Made by a program: the position numbers and the translations under genes
Part shown: one piece after another, positions 12,599 to 45,791 of the stretch
Layout: each line of letters opens with the position of its first letter
Numbering within the stretch: the first letter of the stretch is position 1
NCBI GenBank assembly: GCA_002798255.1
Contig: NWQQ01000034.1
Location: 1 to 64,000 of the forward strand
Length of the DNA stretch: 64,000 bases
Source: Lysobacteraceae bacterium NML95-0200
Lineage (GTDB): Bacteria; Pseudomonadota; Gammaproteobacteria; Xanthomonadales; Xanthomonadaceae
Direction: 5' to 3'
The notes under the pieces: generated by a model
Told to the model about the DNA's origin: nothing
The model's input: the letters and a program-made list of their open reading frames with translations, nothing else
Databases searched by the model: none

Positions 12599-14515
<1,917 letters not shown>

Positions 14516-14564
14516 TGTTGATTACTCTCTCTAATGATTGGGCGGCGATGCCGCGATGACAGGT

Positions 14565-14592
14565 ATTTGGGGATGCCCAGCGCCGCTTCAAG
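14565..14592 (-). promoter_or_regulatory. Sigma32-like heat-shock promoter for dnaK
   Basis: On the minus strand CTTGAAG (14586-14592), 13 bases, then CCCCAAAT (14565-14572), against the RpoH consensus CTTGAAA-N11-16-CCCCATnT. It lies about 50 bases upstream of the dnaK ATG. The same arrangement recurs in front of grpE and cbpA. Confidence 0.75.
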
Positions 14593-14608
14593 GGCTGGGC
14601 TGAAAAAA

Positions 14609-15109
14609 TCAGGGGGCAACCACTACCATTGCCGGACGCAACAGGCGCTCATTGAGCACATAGCCTTTCTGGAACACCTGCACGATGGCGCCGCTGGCAA
14701 TGCCCTCGGCTGCCATCTGGCTCACGGCGTTATGTTGCTCGGGATTGAACGCATCCCCTGCTGCCGCAGCCACTTCGGCAAAACCGTTCTTGCCGGCGAT
14801 ATCGCTCAGCTGCTTGAGGGTCAGCTCAAGGCCGGCACGCAGCGGGTCATCCGCCTTGGCACTGGCAAGCCCGGCCTCCAGTGCGTCAAACACCGGAATC
14901 ATTTCCGACAGCAGCTTTTCGTTGGCAAACTTGCGTGCCATTTCAATATCCCGCGCCAGGCGCTTGCGCTGGTTTTCAAGATCGGCGCGCTCCAGCAGCG
15001 ACTGTGCCTTGAGCTGCTCGATTTCGGCTTTCAAGGCTTCCAGCTCGTCTTCTGCCGCCATTTCCGGCTGCGGGTTTTCATTCGGATCAACTGTATTTTC
15101 TTGGCTCAT
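14609..15109 (-). CDS. grpE: Nucleotide exchange factor GrpE
   Basis: 166-aa nucleotide exchange factor that releases ADP from DnaK. An acidic N-terminal tail is followed by a long coiled coil ([20 protein letters not shown], then [19 protein letters not shown]) and a C-terminal beta domain with the family motif MVQ-type segment [21 protein letters not shown]. The ATG at 15109 is chosen because GGAAAGG lies just upstream; the longer open frame reaches into the promoter. It is divergent from recN, as in E. coli. Confidence 0.97.
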
Positions 15110-37591: not shown

Positions 37592-38471
37592 AGGCGGTTT
37601 TCGTTGCAAAGGCCTCACGCAGCGCTTCATAAGCTGCTCGCTGCTGCTCATTGACAGGCACCGGTGCCAGGACTTCCAACTCGACAATCTGGTCACCCGG
37701 CACCGTGCCCGGCAAGCCGCGACCGCGCAGCCGCAGCTTTTTCCCGGCTTCCGAGCCCGGCGGGATTTTCAGCTCGACCGCACCGCCCAGCGTCGGTACT
37801 TTCACCGTATCCCCCAGGGCTGCTTGCCAGGGCATGACCTCCAGAACATGAATCAGGTTACGACCATCGACTTCAAAATGCGGATGGGCGGCATATTCGA
37901 TTTCCAGCAACAAATCGCCATGCGTGCCTTGTCCCTTCAGGCGAATCACCTTGCCGGGGGCAATGCCCTTGGGCAGCTTTACATCCAGCGATTTGCCGCC
38001 GACGCTGACCCGCACCGAGTCGCCGTTATAGACCTTCTCCAAAGGCACCGAGAGCCTGGCGCGGGTATCGCCACGCGGCGCGCTGTGCCCGGCTCCAGGT
38101 GAAAAACCAGCGGTACGGCGTTGTTGGCCGAAAATCTGCTCAAAGAAATCACTGAAGCCGCCATGCCCGCCGCCGCCGGCAAAGATTTCTTCATAGTCAA
38201 AGCCCGGATGGCCGCCAAAACCACCCTGCGGTGGCACTTCGTCACCGGGACGAAAACCGCGGCTGCGCAGCTGATCATAAGCGGCGCGCTTTTGCGGATC
38301 GCGCAGCGCCTCATAGGCCTCATTGACTGCCTTGAACTTGTCTTCAGCCCCGGCTTCTTTGCTGACATCCGGGTGATATTTGCGCGCCAGACGGCGATAA
38401 GCGCTTTTGATCTCGGCATCGCCCGCTGAAGGCTCAACCCCGAGTGTGGCGTAATAATCCTTGAATTCCAT
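37590..38471 (-). CDS. cbpA: DnaJ-class co-chaperone CbpA
   Basis: Type II Hsp40 (293 aa), co-chaperone of DnaK, and in E. coli also a curved-DNA-binding protein. J domain 1-70 (starting MEFKDYYATLGVEPSAGDAE, with HPD in RKYHPDVSKE), Gly/Phe-rich segment (about 75-130), then two client-binding domains (RARLSVPLEKVYNGDS; KLPKGIAPGKVIRLKGQG; LGGAVELKIPPGSEAGKKL). It lacks the zinc finger that DnaJ (11398) has. cbpM does not follow it. A sigma32-like promoter lies 39 bases upstream. Confidence 0.93.
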   Translation of the reverse strand: MEFKDYYATLGVEPSAGDAEIKSAYRRLARKYHPDVSKEAGAEDKFKAVNEAYEALRDPQKRAAYDQLRSRGFRPGDEVPPQGGFGGHPGFDYEEIFAGGGGHGGFSDFFEQIFGQQRRTAGFSPGAGHSAPRGDTRARLSVPLEKVYNGDSVRVSVGGKSLDVKLPKGIAPGKVIRLKGQGTHGDLLLEIEYAAHPHFEVDGRNLIHVLEVMPWQAALGDTVKVPTLGGAVELKIPPGSEAGKKLRLRGRGLPGTVPGDQIVELEVLAPVPVNEQQRAAYEALREAFATKTA

Positions 38472-38509
38472 CGTATTTCTGCGCCTAGGCGTGATTGCAG
38501 ATGGTCTGG

Positions 38510-38538
38510 ATATGCGGCAAGTGCGCGGGTTTTTCAAG
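38510..38538 (-). promoter_or_regulatory. Sigma32-like heat-shock promoter for cbpA
   Basis: On the minus strand CTTGAAA (38532-38538), 14 bases, then CCGCATAT (38510-38517), one base off CCCCATnT. It is in the 117-base gap between cbpA and the divergent peroxiredoxin gene. Confidence 0.72.
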
Positions 38539-38588
38539 CACCTGCCAAGCTGGCAAAATGTCCGCAATTCATAGCCTAAGGAATTCTC

Positions 38589-39071
38589 ATGAGCATTCAA
38601 ATCGGTGAGCGTATCCCTGAAGTCATGCTGCAGTCGGTGGGCAAGGATGGCTTTGAGAACGTCTCCAGCACGCAATTGTTCCAGGGACGGCGGGTATTGC
38701 TGTTTGCCGTTCCCGGCGCTTTCACCCCAACCTGCTCCGAGCAGCATCTGCCGGGCTATATCGCCGCTCTGGATGCATTTGCCAAGCATGATGTGGCAGT
38801 GATGTGCCTGTCGGTCAATGACCCATTCGTGATGCAGGCCTGGGGCAAGGCGGCCAATGTCCCGGAAGGCTTGCAGATGCTGGCCGATGGCAATGCCGAA
38901 TTCACCCGGGCATTAGGCATGGCGATGGATGGCAGCGCCTACGGCATGGGGGTGCGCAGCAAACGCTATGCGCTGTACGCCGAAGACGGGGTGGTCAAAG
39001 ACCTGCAAGTGGAAGCGCCGGGCGAGCTTCGCGTATCGACGGCGGAGTACATGCTGAAGCGCCTTCCTTAA
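38589..39071 (+). CDS. Peroxiredoxin (Prx5-type)
   Basis: Thiol peroxidase of 160 aa that reduces hydroperoxides. The peroxidatic cysteine is in VPGAFTPTCSEQHLPGY (about residue 49), the Prx5/AhpE-like signature; no second conserved cysteine of a typical 2-Cys enzyme is seen apart from one in VMCLSVND. Starts MSIQIGERIPEV with AAGGA upstream. Divergent from cbpA; reducing partner not identifiable. Confidence 0.93.
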   Translation: MSIQIGERIPEVMLQSVGKDGFENVSSTQLFQGRRVLLFAVPGAFTPTCSEQHLPGYIAALDAFAKHDVAVMCLSVNDPFVMQAWGKAANVPEGLQMLADGNAEFTRALGMAMDGSAYGMGVRSKRYALYAEDGVVKDLQVEAPGELRVSTAEYMLKRLP

Positions 39072-39104
39072 TCGGCACGGAAACCCCTGCAAGGCTCGTG
39101 CCTA

Positions 39105-39716
39105 ATGTCAATCTACCTGTTAAAAAGCCGCTTCCAGAACCTGTTACGCCCGCTGGTGCGGCAGTTGCAGCAGATGGGTGTCAGCGCCAATGCCGTAACC
39201 CACGCCGCCGGGCTGGTTTCGCTCCTGGTCGCTGGCTGGGTGTATTGGCAAGCAGCTGATAAGCCGCTTTGGTATGCCTTGCTGCCGCTATGGATGCTGC
39301 TGCGCATGGGCATGAATGCCATCGACGGCATGCTGGCACGTGAGTTCGGTCATGCCTCGCGCCTGGGCGCCTATCTCAACGAGCTTTGGGATGTGCTGGC
39401 CGATGCAGCTTTGTACGCGGCCTTGGCCAGCCTTGCCGGTGTACGCCATGACATCGTGCTGGGCTTTGTGGTGCTGGCGATATTGAGCGAATACGCCGGC
39501 GTGCTGGGGGTGATGGTCGGCAGCCAGCGCCGTTATGAGGGGCCGATGGGCAAGAGCGACCGAGCCTTTGTGGTTGGCCTGCTGGGGCTGCTTTTGGCCA
39601 CTGGCATTGCCAATGCCGACTGGGTGAACTGGACATACGCACTGGCTGCGGCACTTTGCTGCATCACACTGCTACGCCGTATCCATGCCGGACTCAAGGA
39701 ACCAACAGATGAGTGA
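39105..39716 (+). CDS. CDP-alcohol phosphatidyltransferase family protein (YnbA-like)
   Basis: Membrane enzyme (203 aa) that would join a phosphatidyl group from CDP-diacylglycerol to an alcohol. The family motif Dx2DGx2ARx8Gx3Dx3D appears as NAIDGMLAREFGHASRLGAY then LNELWDVLAD: the first and third Asp are Asn here, the other two are kept. This N-variant is what I recall for YnbA-type members. It begins a six-gene operon and overlaps the next start (ATGAGTGA). The acceptor alcohol is unknown. Confidence 0.85.
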   Translation: MSIYLLKSRFQNLLRPLVRQLQQMGVSANAVTHAAGLVSLLVAGWVYWQAADKPLWYALLPLWMLLRMGMNAIDGMLAREFGHASRLGAYLNELWDVLADAALYAALASLAGVRHDIVLGFVVLAILSEYAGVLGVMVGSQRRYEGPMGKSDRAFVVGLLGLLLATGIANADWVNWTYALAAALCCITLLRRIHAGLKEPTDE

Positions 39717-41484
39717 AGCCGACCGCTACAAAACCCTCCGCCCCCAGCAAAGCCATCACTGGCAAACCCCTGATGGTCAAACCGTGTTTTATCGCCACTG
39801 GCCTGCACAGGGGGTATGTCGCGGCAGCATCGTGCTGCTGCATCGCGGCCATGAGCACTCTGGACGCATGGCACATCTGGTGGATGAGCTGGGCTTGGAG
39901 GATTTTGAGTTCTTCGCCTGGGATGCACGCGGTAACGGACGCTCATCGGGAATGCGTGGCGATGCCCCCGGCTTTATGGGCTGGGTACGCGATCTGGACG
40001 GTTTCATGGCGCATCTTGGCAGCCAGCATGGCGTGCAAATGGAAAGCACCGCACTGGTGGCACAAAGCGTAGGTGCCGTGATTGCCGCAGCTTGGGCACA
40101 TGATTACGCGCCACGACTGCGCGCCATGGTGCTGGCTTCCCCCGCCTTCAAGGTCAAGCTGTATGTCCCGCTGGCACGCCCGGCATTGGCAATGCTGTAC
40201 AAATTGCGCGGCAATTTTCAGGTCAATAGTTACGTCAAGGCCAAGTTCCTGACGCATGACCCCGAGCGCATAGCCAGCTACGAGCAAGATCCGCTGATTA
40301 CCCGGCCGATTTCGGTTCGGGTACTGCTGGGACTTTACAAGACTTCCGAGCGCATCGTGGACGATGCCGCCGCCATCATCGTCCCCACCCAATTGCTGGT
40401 ATCGGCGGCCGACTTCGTGGTGCATCGCGCGCCGCAGGACAGGTTCTTCGAGCGTTTGGGGGCTGCCGTCAAGGAGCGCCACCTGCTGCCGGGTTTTTAC
40501 CATGACACGCTTGGCGAGCGTGACCGGGGAGCGGCCATTGCCAAGATGCGAAAATTCTTGCTGGCGCGCTTTGATGAAGGGCTGAACCTACCCTCGCAGC
40601 TTGAAGCGCACCGACACGGCGTGCGCTTTGACGAGGCTGAAAAACTCGCCTGGCCGCTCCCCAAGTGGAGCGCCGAAGGCCTGTACTGGCGCGCCACCCG
40701 TGCCGGTCTGCGCTTGGGTGGCAAGCTGTCCAAAGGCATCAGACTGGGACTTGAGACCGGCTTTGATTCGGGCAGCACGCTGGACTATGTGTACGAGAAT
40801 CAGGCACGCGGCGCTGGCCCCTTGGGTCGCTTTGTTGACCGCAATTATCTCGATGCCATCGGCTGGCGCGGCATACGTATCCGCCGCGAGCATCTGCGCG
40901 AGCTTTTGGCATTGGCCATGCAGCGCCTGCGCGATGCCGGGATGCCGGTACACGCGGTGGATATTGCCGCAGGTCATGGCCGTTATGTGTTGGAGGCCTT
41001 GGCAGGCACACCGGCAGCGCGCGCCGATAGCATCTTGCTGCGCGATTACAGCCCGCTCAATGTGGAAAAAGGTCGGCAACTCATCCGTGCCCTGAGCGCC
41101 GATGATATTGCCCGCTTCGAGCCCGGCAATGCTTTTGATGGCGAGAACCTGGCCGGCTTGCAACCTTCCCCAACGCTTGCGGTCGTCTCGGGGCTGTATG
41201 AATTGTTCCCCGACAATGCCTTGCTGCAGGCTTCACTTGCGGGTCTGGCGCGCGCCGTGCCCGCTGGGGGGTATTTGGCCTATACCGGCCAACCCTGGCA
41301 TCCGCAGTTGGCCTTCATTGCCCGCGCCCTGACCAGTCATCGCGATGGCGAGGCCTGGGTGATGCGCCGCCGCTCCCAAGCAGAAATGGATGAATTGGTA
41401 CAACAAGCCGGCTTCAAGAAAGTGGCGCAGCGAATCGATGACTTCGGCATCTTCACCGTATCGCTGGCGCAACGTGAAGGCTGA
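39709..41484 (+). CDS. Alpha/beta hydrolase - SAM-dependent methyltransferase fusion (YnbC-like)
   Basis: 591-aa bifunctional protein. The N-terminal half (about 1-310) is a lysophospholipase-type alpha/beta hydrolase: LLHRGHEHSGRMAHLVDEL, nucleophile elbow VAQSVGAVIAA, acid LLVSAADFVV, and His in LLPGFYHDTLGE. The C-terminal half (about 390-590) is a class I methyltransferase with motif I VHAVDIAAGHGRYVLEAL and LAVVSGLYELFPDN. The same fusion occurs as YnbC in E. coli next to YnbA, B and D. Substrate unknown; the lipid enzymes around it suggest a phospholipid or lysolipid. Confidence 0.88.
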   Translation: MSEADRYKTLRPQQSHHWQTPDGQTVFYRHWPAQGVCRGSIVLLHRGHEHSGRMAHLVDELGLEDFEFFAWDARGNGRSSGMRGDAPGFMGWVRDLDGFMAHLGSQHGVQMESTALVAQSVGAVIAAAWAHDYAPRLRAMVLASPAFKVKLYVPLARPALAMLYKLRGNFQVNSYVKAKFLTHDPERIASYEQDPLITRPISVRVLLGLYKTSERIVDDAAAIIVPTQLLVSAADFVVHRAPQDRFFERLGAAVKERHLLPGFYHDTLGERDRGAAIAKMRKFLLARFDEGLNLPSQLEAHRHGVRFDEAEKLAWPLPKWSAEGLYWRATRAGLRLGGKLSKGIRLGLETGFDSGSTLDYVYENQARGAGPLGRFVDRNYLDAIGWRGIRIRREHLRELLALAMQRLRDAGMPVHAVDIAAGHGRYVLEALAGTPAARADSILLRDYSPLNVEKGRQLIRALSADDIARFEPGNAFDGENLAGLQPSPTLAVVSGLYELFPDNALLQASLAGLARAVPAGGYLAYTGQPWHPQLAFIARALTSHRDGEAWVMRRRSQAEMDELVQQAGFKKVAQRIDDFGIFTVSLAQREG

Positions 41485-41485
41485 G

Positions 41486-42772
41486 ATGCAGCGCCGCCCT
41501 TGGTTGCGTGCCTGCGTGTGGTTGGCATTTCTGGGGCCGTTCTTCTTCCTGACTTACGGCCTTGCCAATCAAATGGCAGTGCAACAAGATGCCTTGGGCA
41601 AGGTCGGCAATATTGCCCTGGCCTGGGAGCGGCATATCCCGCTATGGCCCTGGACCATCGTGCCGTATTGGTCAATTGACCTACTGTATGCCATCTCGCC
41701 GTTCCTGTGCCGCAGCCGTACAGAGCTTGACCGTCACGGCCTGCGGCTTCTTTGCGCACAACTGATTGCCGTGACATGTTTTCTGCTTTGGCCGCTGGCC
41801 TTTGGCTTCACCCGGCCACCGATAGAAGGCGTGTTCGGGCAGATGTTCAGTGCGCTGGAGCAGTTTGACAAACCCTATAACCAAGCGCCTTCGCTGCATA
41901 TCGTCCTGCTTGTCGTGCTGTGGGTGAAATATGCCCAGTATCTGCATGGCATCTGGCGGCCGTTGCTGCATATCTGGTTTGCGCTGATTGGCCTCTCGGT
42001 GCTTACCACCTGGCAGCATCATTTCCTGGATGTCCCCACGGGGCTTGCCGTGGGCTGGCTATGCGTATGGTTGTGGCCGGATGCGCCACTTGCATCGCCA
42101 CTGCAACGTGCTGCCCCAGCCCACTGCAGCCGCTGGCGTTTTGCCCTGCTGTATGCCTTGGGCGCCGCCTTGTTGTGCGGACTGGCATGGCAAGGTGGCC
42201 TCTGGCTGTGCCTGGCATGGCCAGCGTTATCGCTGGCCGTGGTGGCCTTCAACTATGCCTGGAGTGGCGCTGCCGGTTTTCAGAAGCAGGCCAATGGGCA
42301 GTTATCCATCGCCTCACGCTGGCTGCTGGCGCCCTACCTAGCGGCTGCCTGGCTGAATTCACGTCTGTGGACACATCGGCAGCCACAGCCGATTGCCCTC
42401 GGTGAAGGGTTGTGGTTAGGCCGTATCCCTGGTCGCGGCGAGCGGCAAAATTTTGCCCAAGTATTTGATTGCTGTGCGGAACTGCCGCGTGTGGATGCCT
42501 GCCCTGACGATGTCCAGCAGCTCATGCTGGATTTGCTGCCGCCAAGCAAGGCACAGCTCATTGCCGCGGCCGATGCACTCGACAAACAGCTCCAGCAAGG
42601 CCCGGTATTGCTCTGTTGCGCGCTTGGCTATTCGCGCAGCGCCAGTGTGGCGCTGGCCTGGCGGATACGTTGCCGGGGCGCGTCGTTTGCCGAGGCCTTG
42701 CAATGGCTGCAGCAGCGCAAACCCGAGTGCGTGATAAAGCCCGCGCATCGACATGTTTTGGAGCGCCTGTAA
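41486..42772 (+). CDS. PAP2-like / dual-specificity phosphatase fusion (YnbD-like)
   Basis: 428-aa membrane protein. The N-terminal part has several helices and a PAP2/inositol-phosphotransferase-like core with APSLHIVLLV and TTWQHHFLDVPTGLAVGW. The C-terminal domain (about 310-428) is a dual-specificity phosphatase with Cx5R in VLLCCALGYSRSASVALAWR; the residue before the nucleophile Cys is Cys, where His is usual. E. coli YnbD has this fusion. It could dephosphorylate a phosphatidyl-polyol phosphate. Begins 1 base after the ynbC-like stop and overlaps the next gene. Confidence 0.87.
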   Translation: MQRRPWLRACVWLAFLGPFFFLTYGLANQMAVQQDALGKVGNIALAWERHIPLWPWTIVPYWSIDLLYAISPFLCRSRTELDRHGLRLLCAQLIAVTCFLLWPLAFGFTRPPIEGVFGQMFSALEQFDKPYNQAPSLHIVLLVVLWVKYAQYLHGIWRPLLHIWFALIGLSVLTTWQHHFLDVPTGLAVGWLCVWLWPDAPLASPLQRAAPAHCSRWRFALLYALGAALLCGLAWQGGLWLCLAWPALSLAVVAFNYAWSGAAGFQKQANGQLSIASRWLLAPYLAAAWLNSRLWTHRQPQPIALGEGLWLGRIPGRGERQNFAQVFDCCAELPRVDACPDDVQQLMLDLLPPSKAQLIAAADALDKQLQQGPVLLCCALGYSRSASVALAWRIRCRGASFAEALQWLQQRKPECVIKPAHRHVLERL

Positions 42773-43182
42773 TGCGTCCACTGCAAACCCATCTCACCGC
42801 ACTCTCTGCCTGGCTTACCGCACTACGCAGCAGCCTGCGTCTGCCGCTTGGCATTGGCCTTGCCATAGCCGCCTGGGCACTATGGCTGAAAGCCGGTCTG
42901 CCCGGCAATATCGCGCTTGGAATCAGCATTGCACTGGCATTTGCCGCGCTGTACCTGGATTTGCGGCTGGGCTTTGACAGCCGCTTGCTCGCCATCGACG
43001 CCGATAGCCAACAACTTGATGCCGCGCTGCTATGGCTTGGCTTTCTGCCTGCGGCCAAAGCCGGGCGAAGCTGGGAGGCACGGCGTGATGGCTGTTTGCG
43101 CCTTGGCCGACGGCTGATATTCATCGTTATCCTGCAGTGGCTGGCATTGCTTGCCGCTTTTGCACTTTGGAGGTGGTCATGA
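42772..43182 (+). CDS. Small membrane protein in the phospholipid operon
   Basis: 136-aa protein with no recognised domain. Two hydrophobic stretches lie near residues 23-55 and one at the C-terminus (IFIVILQWLALLAAFALW), with a soluble middle (DADSQQLDAALLWLGFLPAA). It overlaps ynbD-like by 3 bases (TAATG) and the acyltransferase start by 4, so it is translated as part of the operon. No counterpart is known to me in E. coli ynbABCD. Confidence 0.7.
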   Translation: MRPLQTHLTALSAWLTALRSSLRLPLGIGLAIAAWALWLKAGLPGNIALGISIALAFAALYLDLRLGFDSRLLAIDADSQQLDAALLWLGFLPAAKAGRSWEARRDGCLRLGRRLIFIVILQWLALLAAFALWRWS

Positions 43183-43808
43183 CTTCCCGGCTGGTTGCCC
43201 GGCTCATTAGCGCGCTCATCCGTTTTTTGACCGGTGCTCGCGCCATCTGGCATTGCCGTCCGGAAGCCCGCAAGCGGGTATATTACGGCAACCACGCAAG
43301 CCATGGCGATTTCGTGCTGATTTGGTCAGCAATACCCCTCGCCCTGCGCGCCCAGGTGCGTCCGGTCGCAGCAGCCGAATATTGGCAAAAAGGAAGGTTG
43401 CGTCGTTACCTCATCAGCCGGGTGTTCAATGGCGTTCTCATCGAGCGTGAGGCGCAAAACCGTCAGCATGACCCACTGCAAACCTTGTGTCAGGCTGTGG
43501 ACGAAGGAGCCTCCTTGATTATCTTCCCGGAAGGCACACGCAATACCGATGATGGGCTGCTGCCGTTCAAAAGCGGTATTTTTCATCTGGCGCAGGCAAG
43601 GCCGCAGCTGGAATTCGTTCCCGTGTGGATAGACAACCTGGCGCGCGTCATGCCCAAGGGCAAGTTGCTGCCATTGCCATTGCTGTGCAGCGCCACCTTC
43701 GGGCAACCCATCCAGCTTGCCGCTGGCGAGGACAAGGCCGCCTTTTTGCAGCGCAGCCGTGATGCGCTGCTTGCACTGGGCGAGGCCCGTAGCCAGGAGC
43801 CGCACTGA
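43179..43808 (+). CDS. Lysophospholipid acyltransferase family protein (PlsC-like)
   Basis: 209-aa 1-acyl-glycerol-phosphate acyltransferase-like enzyme. Catalytic Hx4D motif in YYGNHASHGDFVLIW; motif III IIFPEGTRNTDDGLLPFKSG; EFVPVWIDNL as motif IV region. ATG at 43179 sits after GGAGGTGGTC, inside the 3' end of the previous gene. It probably acylates a lysolipid made or used by the neighbours; it may not be the housekeeping PlsC. Confidence 0.88.
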   Translation: MTSRLVARLISALIRFLTGARAIWHCRPEARKRVYYGNHASHGDFVLIWSAIPLALRAQVRPVAAAEYWQKGRLRRYLISRVFNGVLIEREAQNRQHDPLQTLCQAVDEGASLIIFPEGTRNTDDGLLPFKSGIFHLAQARPQLEFVPVWIDNLARVMPKGKLLPLPLLCSATFGQPIQLAAGEDKAAFLQRSRDALLALGEARSQEPH

Positions 43809-44758
43809 TGCTGCAAAAATTCTTGTCACTGCCGCATACCCTGCTGCTGTTTCTTGGCATCTTTGCCGTACTGAGCTTGGCCACCCTGATTGCCGAAGCC
43901 TTGCGCTGGCGTCTGCAAGGCGCTGCCAACCCGGTCATCGACAATCTGGTCGCGCGTATCCGCGCCTGGTGGGTGATGGCCGCACTCGTTGGCCTGGCGT
44001 TCTGGGCAGGGCGTGCCGGTGTGGTCGGCTTGTTCTTTTGCGTATCGTTCTTTGCCTTGCGCGAATTTCTCACCCTCACCCCCACCCGGCGCAGCGATTA
44101 CTATGCCGTCCTGGCCGCGTTCTATCTCGCGCTACCCCTGCAATACTGGTTGGTGTACAGCGACTGGTATGGCCTGTTTGCCATCCTGATTCCGGTCTAT
44201 GCGTTTTTGGCATTGCCGGTGCTTTCAGCGCTCGGTGGCGAAGTGCGTGGCTATCTGGAACGCACCGCCAAAGTGCAATGGGGATTGATGATAAGCGTGT
44301 ACTGCATTTCCCATGTGCCGATGCTGCTGAACCTGAAAATCCCCGGCTTTGAAGGCCGCAACCTGCTGTTGGTGGCGTTTTTAGTCATCGTCGTGCAGTC
44401 CTCTGATGTCCTGCAATACATCTGGGGCAAACTCTGCGGCAAACGTCTGATTGCGCCACGGCTATCGCCCTCCAAGACCCTGGAAGGCTTTGTCGGCGGC
44501 ATACTCTCGGCCAGCCTGCTCGGCATGGGATTGTGGTGGATTACGCCTTTCACCCCCTGGCAGGCCGGACTCCTGGCACTCATCATCACCCTGATGGGCT
44601 TTTATGGCGGGCTGGTGATGTCTGCCATCAAGCGCGATCGCGGCATCAAGGATTGGGGGCAGATGATCGAAGGACACGGCGGCATGCTCGATCGGCTGGA
44701 TTCAGTCTGCTTTGCAGCCCCGGTGTTCTTCCATGTCATCCGGTACTGGTGGAGCTAG
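43808..44758 (+). CDS. Phosphatidate cytidylyltransferase (CdsA/YnbB-like)
   Basis: 316-aa membrane enzyme forming CDP-diacylglycerol from phosphatidate and CTP. About eight helices; the CDS signature is complete near the C-terminus: SAIKRDRGIKDWGQMIEGHG followed by GMLDRLDS. Also LSPSKTLEGFVGG. Overlaps the acyltransferase as TGATG. As last gene it would provide the activated lipid used by the CDP-alcohol phosphatidyltransferase at 39105. Resembles the E. coli YnbB paralogue more by context than by any specific residue. Confidence 0.92.
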   Translation: MLQKFLSLPHTLLLFLGIFAVLSLATLIAEALRWRLQGAANPVIDNLVARIRAWWVMAALVGLAFWAGRAGVVGLFFCVSFFALREFLTLTPTRRSDYYAVLAAFYLALPLQYWLVYSDWYGLFAILIPVYAFLALPVLSALGGEVRGYLERTAKVQWGLMISVYCISHVPMLLNLKIPGFEGRNLLLVAFLVIVVQSSDVLQYIWGKLCGKRLIAPRLSPSKTLEGFVGGILSASLLGMGLWWITPFTPWQAGLLALIITLMGFYGGLVMSAIKRDRGIKDWGQMIEGHGGMLDRLDSVCFAAPVFFHVIRYWWS

Positions 44759-44930: not shown

Positions 44931-45791
44931 TCAACGCCTCGGCAAATACACCTGCGGATCCACTGGCTTGCCGTTTTGGCGAATTTCAAAATGCAGCATA
45001 TTGCGCGGCGCGCCGCTGCTGCCCAGCTCGCCAATCTGCTGACCGGCCTTGACCAAGGCGCCTTCATTGACCAAGCGCCTGCGGTTGTGGCCATAAGCCG
45101 AAAGCCATTGGTCGTCGTGCTTGATGATGATGAGCTCGCCATAGCCCACCAGTCCCGAGCCGGAATACACCACGGTGCCGTCTGCGGCTGCGCGTACGGC
45201 CTCTCCCCCATTGCCGGAGATATCAATGCCCTGGCGGGTGGTGTCATTGGCAAGATAAGTGGAGATGATTTGCCCACCGCTGACCGGCCATTGCCAAGCA
45301 ATCCGGCTTATCGCCGCTGGCGCTGCGGTTACTGCCGTACTGGCAGGCGGTGCTGTCGGGCGCGTGACAGGACGGCCGGGGGCCGGTGCAGTGCTACGCG
45401 GTGGCGTGCTGCTGGCCGTGGCATCACGCGGATACAGGCGCAGGCGCTGGCCGGGGTAGATGGTGTAAGGCGGCGGGACATTGTTCCACAATGCCAAGTC
45501 CAGCGGCGTAATGCCGTTCTGGGTGGCGATGCGATATACCGTTTCACCGCGTTGCACCACATGGGTGGCACCGTATTTGGGCTGCGAAACCCTGGCCTGC
45601 GGCGTTGCGCTCTGCACTGGGCGCGCAGCAGACTGCGATTGTGATTGTGTCTGTGCTGCCCCGGTAGCAGCCGGCTGCGGACTGCGCACCACCGTACTGC
45701 GGGTACAGGCGCTTGCGCCCAACAGCAGGACAGCGCTCACCGCCATGGCGCGCAGCACACGGGTATTGGGCTGTGAAAACATATTGTTCAT
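44931..45791 (-). CDS. nlpD: NlpD-like lipoprotein, LysM and degenerate M23 domains
   Basis: 286-aa envelope protein that activates amidases for septal peptidoglycan splitting. Lipoprotein-type signal peptide ending GASAC, proline/Ser/Thr-rich spacer, LysM domain (about 75-120, THVVQRGETVYRIATQNGIT), second spacer, then an M23 domain (about 180-285). The first zinc-site motif reads RQGIDISGNG where active M23 enzymes have HxGxD, and LSAYGHN lacks the HxH pair; LHFEIR is kept. This is the NlpD/EnvC-like non-catalytic form. Overlaps the ExoD gene by 4 bases. Confidence 0.92.
   Translation of the reverse strand: MNNMFSQPNTRVLRAMAVSAVLLLGASACTRSTVVRSPQPAATGAAQTQSQSQSAARPVQSATPQARVSQPKYGATHVVQRGETVYRIATQNGITPLDLALWNNVPPPYTIYPGQRLRLYPRDATASSTPPRSTAPAPGRPVTRPTAPPASTAVTAAPAAISRIAWQWPVSGGQIISTYLANDTTRQGIDISGNGGEAVRAAADGTVVYSGSGLVGYGELIIIKHDDQWLSAYGHNRRRLVNEGALVKAGQQIGELGSSGAPRNMLHFEIRQNGKPVDPQVYLPRR

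Follow-up and report, generated by a model that had tools for sequence, protein, structure and literature searches.

A protein of the cytidine diphosphate (CDP)-alcohol transferase fold, with asparagine at two of the four metal-binding aspartate positions, opens a six-gene lipid operon in the stretch of Lysobacteraceae bacterium NML95-0200 DNA analysed here (64,000 nucleotides, positions 1 to 64,000 of contig NWQQ01000034.1; hereafter the window). The operon lies at 39105-44758 on the + strand, where open reading frame (ORF) calls and Pfam give six intact, tightly packed genes in the order A-C-D-X-P-B; A, B, C and D are named for their likeness to YnbA, YnbB, YnbC and YnbD of Escherichia coli, P for PlsC, and X is a small membrane protein. 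Compared by gene number, annotation and spacing, it is apparently the same set as arc1A-F of Pseudomonas aeruginosa, i.e. a known operon and not a new one; what is new here is the pair of family-wide asparagines in the motif of the first enzyme. From the gene content and by analogy with the published system, we consider it probable that this operon provides a dedicated second phospholipid assembly line, beside the housekeeping one, for withstanding attack on membrane lipids.

The CDP-alcohol transferase family is defined by the motif DxxDGxxAR(x8)GxxxDxxxD (PMC8633023; here and below, published statements are taken from the excerpts of each paper that were available). Gene A (39105-39716, + strand; 203 amino acids; YnbA-like and the presumed Arc1A; Pfam CDP-OH_P_transf, E = 3.5e-7) fails this canonical motif with its four Asp: it reads N71-x2-D74-G-x2-A-R-x8-G88-x3-N92-E93-x2-D96, so that Asn stands in place of the first and third Asp. 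For the wider family, profiles of the six proteins were mapped on 112 loci, i.e. 32 strong matches from samples of relatives, class and phylum and 80 loci from named genomes; since the latter are the best 80 of at least 581 relatives, both the residue counts and the order counts lean to Lysobacteraceae and Pseudomonas. Eight weak matches (in G052, G109, G459, G212, G461, G455 and G304, and the second one in G247) were left out, as was the own genome. In the alignment of 111 A rows, which include the window and E. coli YnbA and count in three duplicate genomes, the first motif Asp is replaced by Asn in 109 and the third in all 111, while the second and fourth are kept in all 111; only two rows, G003 and G012, have Asp at the first position. 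These counts were made by alignment, a regular-expression count having left 15 rows unmatched. E. coli YnbA carries Asn at the same two positions, and the three other CDP-alcohol transferases of the host genome keep all four Asp; in the open-licence literature we found no remark on Asn in the YnbA motif.

What such replacements may mean is suggested by the phosphatidylserine synthase of Methanocaldococcus jannaschii. There, one metal is bound by the first three Asp, and the first, third and fourth contribute to binding of the other; substitution of Ser or Asn for these Asp lowered activity or abolished it, and some of the changes were partly rescued by more Mg (PMC8633023). In the A family, Glu93, beside the third position, and Glu129 do not vary among the 111 rows; they could serve as substitute metal ligands. 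The overall fold is predicted with high confidence: the AlphaFold model of A (pLDDT, the predicted local distance difference test, 92.4; predicted TM-score, pTM, 0.85) has 19 matches in the PDB at E <= 0.001, all 19 of which are CDP-alcohol transferases, with TM-scores of 0.67-0.81. The best are PgsA1/PIPS, AF2299 and DIPPS, with phosphatidylserine and phosphatidylglycerol-phosphate synthases ranking behind, and several of these nearest folds are enzymes that take phosphorylated acceptors. The best NCBIfam models are those for archaetidylinositol-phosphate synthase (4.3e-21; 75.6 of 180 bits) and phosphatidylinositol-phosphate synthase (5.5e-13; 49 of 170 bits), both far under their cut-offs. 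In the alignment with PgsA1, read by eye, the A positions at K135 and R137, which we take to be inositol-phosphate ligands, are not basic, and the R155 position is kept. It thus appears that gene A has been maintained and that its product, though of the CDP-alcohol transferase fold, has a different active site. The preliminary description of this DNA had assigned to it transfer to an alcohol; the fold agrees with that assignment, and the normal enzyme that it assumed does not fit Asn at two of the four metal-binding Asp positions throughout the family.

In the other four enzymes, unlike in A, the catalytic residues that were checked are invariant or nearly so (113 rows for C, 108 for D, 98 for B and 100 for P; rows outside set lengths were left out of these alignments, as of that of A and of the profile count for X, and the three duplicate genomes were kept in the alignments of A, C, D, B and P). 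Gene C (39709-41484, + strand; 591 amino acids) is a YnbC-like alpha/beta hydrolase fused to a methyltransferase (Pfam Hydrolase_4, 4.9e-67, and Methyltransf_20, 1.6e-145). By position its hydrolase triad is Ser120, Asp235 and His265, and this Ser-Asp-His set is invariant in the 113 rows, in which the methyltransferase loop is also among the residues that are invariant or nearly so. The hydrolase half is nearest to monoglyceride lipases and is of the monoglyceride-lipase/lysophospholipase type; its best named model, lysophospholipase L2, scores 31.8 of 362 bits, far under the cut-off. Gene D (41486-42772, + strand; 428 amino acids; YnbD-like) joins a membrane PAP2 phosphatase to a C-terminal dual-specificity phosphatase (Pfam PAP2, 1.0e-7, and DSPc, 8.9e-8, the latter at 32.5 bits, 1 bit below its cut-off). 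The PSxH and HxxxD of PAP2 and the phosphatase C378-x5-R384 are invariant or nearly so in the 108 rows, Lys129 is kept in 97 of them, and the residue before the phosphatase Cys varies (C in 101, H in 5, S in 1 and T in 1).

Gene P (43179-43808, + strand; 209 amino acids; Pfam Acyltransferase, 1.7e-18) has both the HX4D box, as H39-x4-D44, and the FPEGTR expected of a PlsC-like acyltransferase; among 100 rows the His is present in 100, position 44 is D in 92 and E in 8, and the E, G and R of FPEGTR stand in all 100. Gene B (43808-44758, + strand; 316 amino acids; Pfam CTP_transf_1, 5.2e-68) is a YnbB-like cytidine triphosphate (CTP) transferase of the CdsA family with an intact C-terminal CdsA signature, 10 of 11 checked positions being invariant in the 98 rows and the last Asp present in 97. 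The best NCBIfam models of both fall under their cut-offs, that of B being phosphatidate cytidylyltransferase PRK11624. Because A carries the two Asn, the catalytic residues of these four enzymes are nearly all conserved, and the other transferases of the host keep their four Asp, transfer is the least certain step of any pathway drawn from this operon.

Gene X (42772-43182, + strand; 136 amino acids) is the sole gene of the six without a functional lead: it belongs to no Pfam family, and a Pfam scan of 39 X members matched 17 families, each with a single member only and the best at E = 0.0018. It is nonetheless found by its profile in 101 of the 112 loci. Sequence conservation is low, column identity averaging 34% over 39 rows; the conserved residues are R65, D69, D83, R99 and R104, of which D69, D83 and R104 are invariant. 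The predicted structure is of four helices at high confidence (pLDDT 92.3), and a fold search with it gave 0 PDB matches at E <= 0.001, the best being to NINJ1 at 0.6.

The identification with arc1 rests on published descriptions of the P. aeruginosa genes. In transposon screens, Ting and others (eLife 2022) found that genes of the PA2536-41 operon help P. aeruginosa to survive the type VI secretion system (T6SS) of Burkholderia thailandensis, and named the six arc1A-F, antagonism resistance cluster 1; five of them relate to phospholipids, and four look like enzymes needed for phosphatidylglycerol synthesis (PMC8926400). Excerpts of other papers give PA2536 as a probable phosphatidate cytidylyltransferase, PA2537 as a probable acyltransferase and PA2540 as a putative phospholipase, and list PA2541 among RsmA targets. 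In P. aeruginosa, arc1 is under Gac/Rsm control and protects against T6SS attack. The window operon likewise has six genes, five of them lipid-related, and when its order is set against the published description its CdsA-like, acyltransferase and phospholipase-like genes fall in the spacing of PA2536, PA2537 and PA2540. These three annotations fit B, P and C, and the match to arc1 is made on them together with gene number and spacing; PA2541 would then correspond to A, and presumably is a CDP-alcohol transferase. Among the best 80 of the at least 581 relatives, named Pseudomonas loci carry the window order A-C-D-X-P-B. The preliminary description had ranked the operon as a candidate for an undescribed lipid pathway, which, given this match by description to published genes, it mostly is not; its judgement that the genes form a dedicated phospholipid-type pathway appears right, and the end product, which it could not name, is still one for which we found no report in the open-licence literature on either arc1 or ynbABCD.

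Presence of the operon is patchy, and its order is mostly kept where the genes occur. Of 100 relatives, counting the own genome, 10 have a strong Methyltransf_20 match, a further match being weak, and four of these ten genomes fall among the genus's 17. The hydrolase-methyltransferase occurs in 16 of the 369 class members sampled, 13 of these being over the cut-off, and in 17 of the 299 sampled from the phylum, with the own genome in both. After removal of the three duplicate genomes, 92 of 109 distinct loci keep the core order A-C-D-X-P-B: 72 have exactly this order, 10 have in addition, between X and P, another gene that is CDP-alcohol-transferase-like, eight have a further acyltransferase-type gene upstream, one carries an upstream acyltransferase-type gene in the opposite orientation and one has an extra partial B. 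Among the 17 loci of other order, four (L063, L119, L134 and L141) are incomplete, on contigs of 4.3 to 6.9 kb. Conservation in relatives, to which the preliminary description had looked as a check, is thus present as kept order in a patchily distributed operon.

Several of these variants carry details of their own. The second A-like gene belongs to Xanthomonas/Lysobacter-type loci (L046, at 12644-14850, and L082, L083, L084, L085, L087, L093, L094, L096 and L098), and its product is looser at the motif, the first position being Asn in nine rows and Ser in one, and the third Asn in six, Ser in three and His in one; in L046 it is preceded by a 517-amino-acid ORF with a Gly/Cys-rich tail. The upstream gene of the eight loci, which are Pseudomonas-type (L066, L097, L101, L102, L103, L124, L127 and L143), is a PlsC-type acyltransferase that precedes A. 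The partial CdsA-like frame lies past the operon at L050:13723-14236. G003 and G012 (L053 and L054), of the same genus as the host, hold a very distant version of the operon, with B and C on one strand and A and D on the other.

The rows nearest to the window's C in a tree of that protein are G001 and a 'Pseudomonadota bacterium', identical to each other and 94% identical to it, followed by Luteimonas and other Lysobacteraceae, and 11 Pseudomonas-type rows form one clade. The host genome (2.38 Mb in 46 contigs) is itself Lysobacteraceae-like. In the window the operon is flanked by a peroxiredoxin gene (38589-39071) before A and, beyond B and facing the operon, by an NlpD/M23-type gene (44931-45791). 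A block at 37609-44754, consisting of a DnaJ/CbpA-type gene (named by eye), the peroxiredoxin gene and the operon, recurs at 90% DNA identity in G001 (L049), the nearest operon-bearing relative, in which the block and the nlpD-side genes are on separate contigs. G006 has an NlpD 93% identical to that of the window, with an adjoining 8.7 kb that holds no match of over 80 bases to the window, and its genome has no Methyltransf_20 match; together with the arrangement in G001, this puts the block at different genomic places in close relatives. Chance ORFs are ruled out by the 90%-identical block and by the core order in 92 of the 109 loci. In the part of the neighbour survey that was read, the commonest clusters printed were lineage-bound and many of the frames were shadow frames.

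Within the operon, gene starts were chosen as the ATG adjoining the preceding stop. The genes follow one another in the order that the preliminary description had given, and its 'nearly all overlapping by 1-8 bases' holds for four of the five junctions (8, 1, 4 and 1 bases), C and D being separated by a 1-base gap. Directly before the start codon of A, at 39074-39102, is a hairpin-like GGCACG...CGTGCC; the 57-nucleotide leader of A folds no better than its shuffles (z -1.12; 26 of 200 shuffles as good).

The assembly line that we favour would be a second one, because the host genome holds housekeeping counterparts elsewhere: three other CDP-alcohol transferases, one other CdsA-type gene and four other PlsC-type genes. 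P would acylate a lyso-precursor, probably 1-acyl-glycerol-3-phosphate, to phosphatidic acid, which B would activate with CTP to CDP-diacylglycerol; A, as a divergent enzyme, would move the phosphatidyl group to an acceptor that is probably phosphorylated, and D would take off the extra phosphate. A phosphorylated intermediate is suggested by the phosphatase domains of D and by the resemblance of A to enzymes with phosphorylated acceptors. C could remove acyl chains from (lyso)lipid that is damaged or in excess, methylate the product, or both, and X may act as a helper in the membrane. Such a line would yield a minor lipid, serving either as a substitute for what T6SS lipases destroy or by withstanding them; our guess is that it is phosphatidylglycerol-like or a methylated lipid. 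A protective role is consistent with a 2025 paper in which loss of arc1A made P. aeruginosa more sensitive to the T6SS of Vibrio cholerae, less so when that strain lacked active TseL, and also to Acinetobacter baylyi carrying only the lipase Tle1 (PMC12663445). A bolder version, which we think somewhat unlikely, is that Arc1A/YnbA has a rebuilt metal site (N-x2-D...N-E-x2-D plus the invariant E129), does not carry out the two-metal textbook reaction and, with the fused lipase-methyltransferase, makes an undescribed class of lipid that keeps the membrane hard for T6SS lipases to destroy.

Several observations weigh against a phospholipid assembly line for defence. Since Asp to Ser or Asn changes damage the archaeal phosphatidylserine synthase, gene A, with Asn at two metal-binding positions, may not perform the textbook transfer at all. 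In the available parts of the two studies of P. aeruginosa, arc1A looks auxiliary to arc3A in lipase resistance (PMC12663445), the Arc1 defect was unchanged by any single attacker effector mutation, and, of the Arc1 genes, just one exceeded the threshold for defence against Tle3 (both PMC8926400). The comparison itself is made with PA2541-36 proteins known here by description only, no record named P. aeruginosa being among the 80 loci listed. Co-occurrence of the operon with DUF2339, the Arc3A family, is unconvincing, with matches over the cut-off in 7 of 10 operon-bearing genomes and in 50 of 90 others. Finally, the data on E. coli YnbB and the glycolipid MPIase, taken up below, may point to another product.

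The main rival to the assembly line is repair or clean-up, because the hydrolase half of C resembles monoglyceride lipases and, weakly, lysophospholipase L2: C would hydrolyse lysophospholipids or monoglycerides, P would re-acylate, and B and A would recycle the backbone, so that lipase products are detoxified and the operon yields no new lipid. The invariant Ser-Asp-His of C and the contribution of arc1A to lipase resistance (PMC12663445) are both consistent with this, and the altered site of A could mean that textbook synthesis has been lost; the fused methyltransferase, the two phosphatase domains and CDP-diacylglycerol synthesis would, however, be left without a clear job, and lysophospholipids are already handled by Arc3 and Aas in P. 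aeruginosa (PMC8926400, PMC12663445). We regard clean-up as unlikely. Still less credible, in our view, is that B forms a sugar-diphosphate diacylglycerol as precursor of an MPIase-like glycolipid and that the operon serves membrane protein insertion. MPIase rose when E. coli YnbB was overproduced, and YnbB failed to substitute for CdsA, but deletion of ynbB did not significantly change MPIase (PMC6362211). These data show at least that YnbB is not a plain CdsA; moreover, by Pfam there is no glycosyltransferase among the six operon genes, although the partly read neighbour survey cannot exclude one nearby. Phosphatidylinositol or its phosphate, made by transfer by A to inositol-1-phosphate and dephosphorylation by D, is suggested by the best named models and folds of A, and we reject it as highly improbable, since the host genome has no PF07994 inositol-1-phosphate synthase match (0 of 1 genome; listed completeness 100%), A scores far under the cut-offs of the inositol models, and two of the three PgsA1 positions considered above, those presumed to be ligands, are not kept.

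Together, these readings leave a widespread, defence-linked lipid module whose product we found nowhere reported. The Asn substitutions in A form a simple and specific feature that lends itself to testing, and they caution that a pathway step drawn from annotation may be wrong. Set beside PgsA1/PIPS, AF2299 and DIPPS, A shares their fold and most of their motif and differs by Asn at the first and third Asp; from PgsA1/PIPS it differs also at the two presumed inositol-phosphate ligand positions. Arc3 (DUF2339) and Aas/LplT are other proteins that likewise protect P. aeruginosa against T6SS lipases, according to the excerpts available, and the host genome encodes a DUF2339 (Arc3A-family) protein at C6:55542-57803. 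The closest known system is arc1A-F itself, which shares with the window six genes, a CdsA-like end gene (PA2536), an adjoining acyltransferase (PA2537) and a phospholipase-like gene (PA2540); it differs in belonging to P. aeruginosa and not to a Lysobacteraceae-like host, and the regulation and defence role reported for it are those of the P. aeruginosa operon; for the window operon both would be putative.

The other close system is ynbABCD of E. coli K-12 (NC_000913.3), for which we found no defence role in the open-licence literature. As the preliminary description had proposed, the window operon is kin to it: A, B, C and D are 39, 40, 55 and 40% identical to YnbA, YnbB, YnbC and YnbD, all four homologues stand in one cluster, and the two Asn positions of YnbA are shared. 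The E. coli genes differ in their order, ynbA-ynbB-ynbC-ynbD, and in having neither X nor P beside them. Because A-C-D-X-P-B is common in the sample, with its lean to close relatives, and E. coli lacks X and P there, the six-gene form should not be regarded as YnbABCD to which 'two extra genes' were added, as it had been put; ynbABCD is a four-gene relative, and the E. coli form is the unusual one in this sample. Since this four-gene version has the same Asn positions, the question of which lipid is made is open to study in E. coli K-12.

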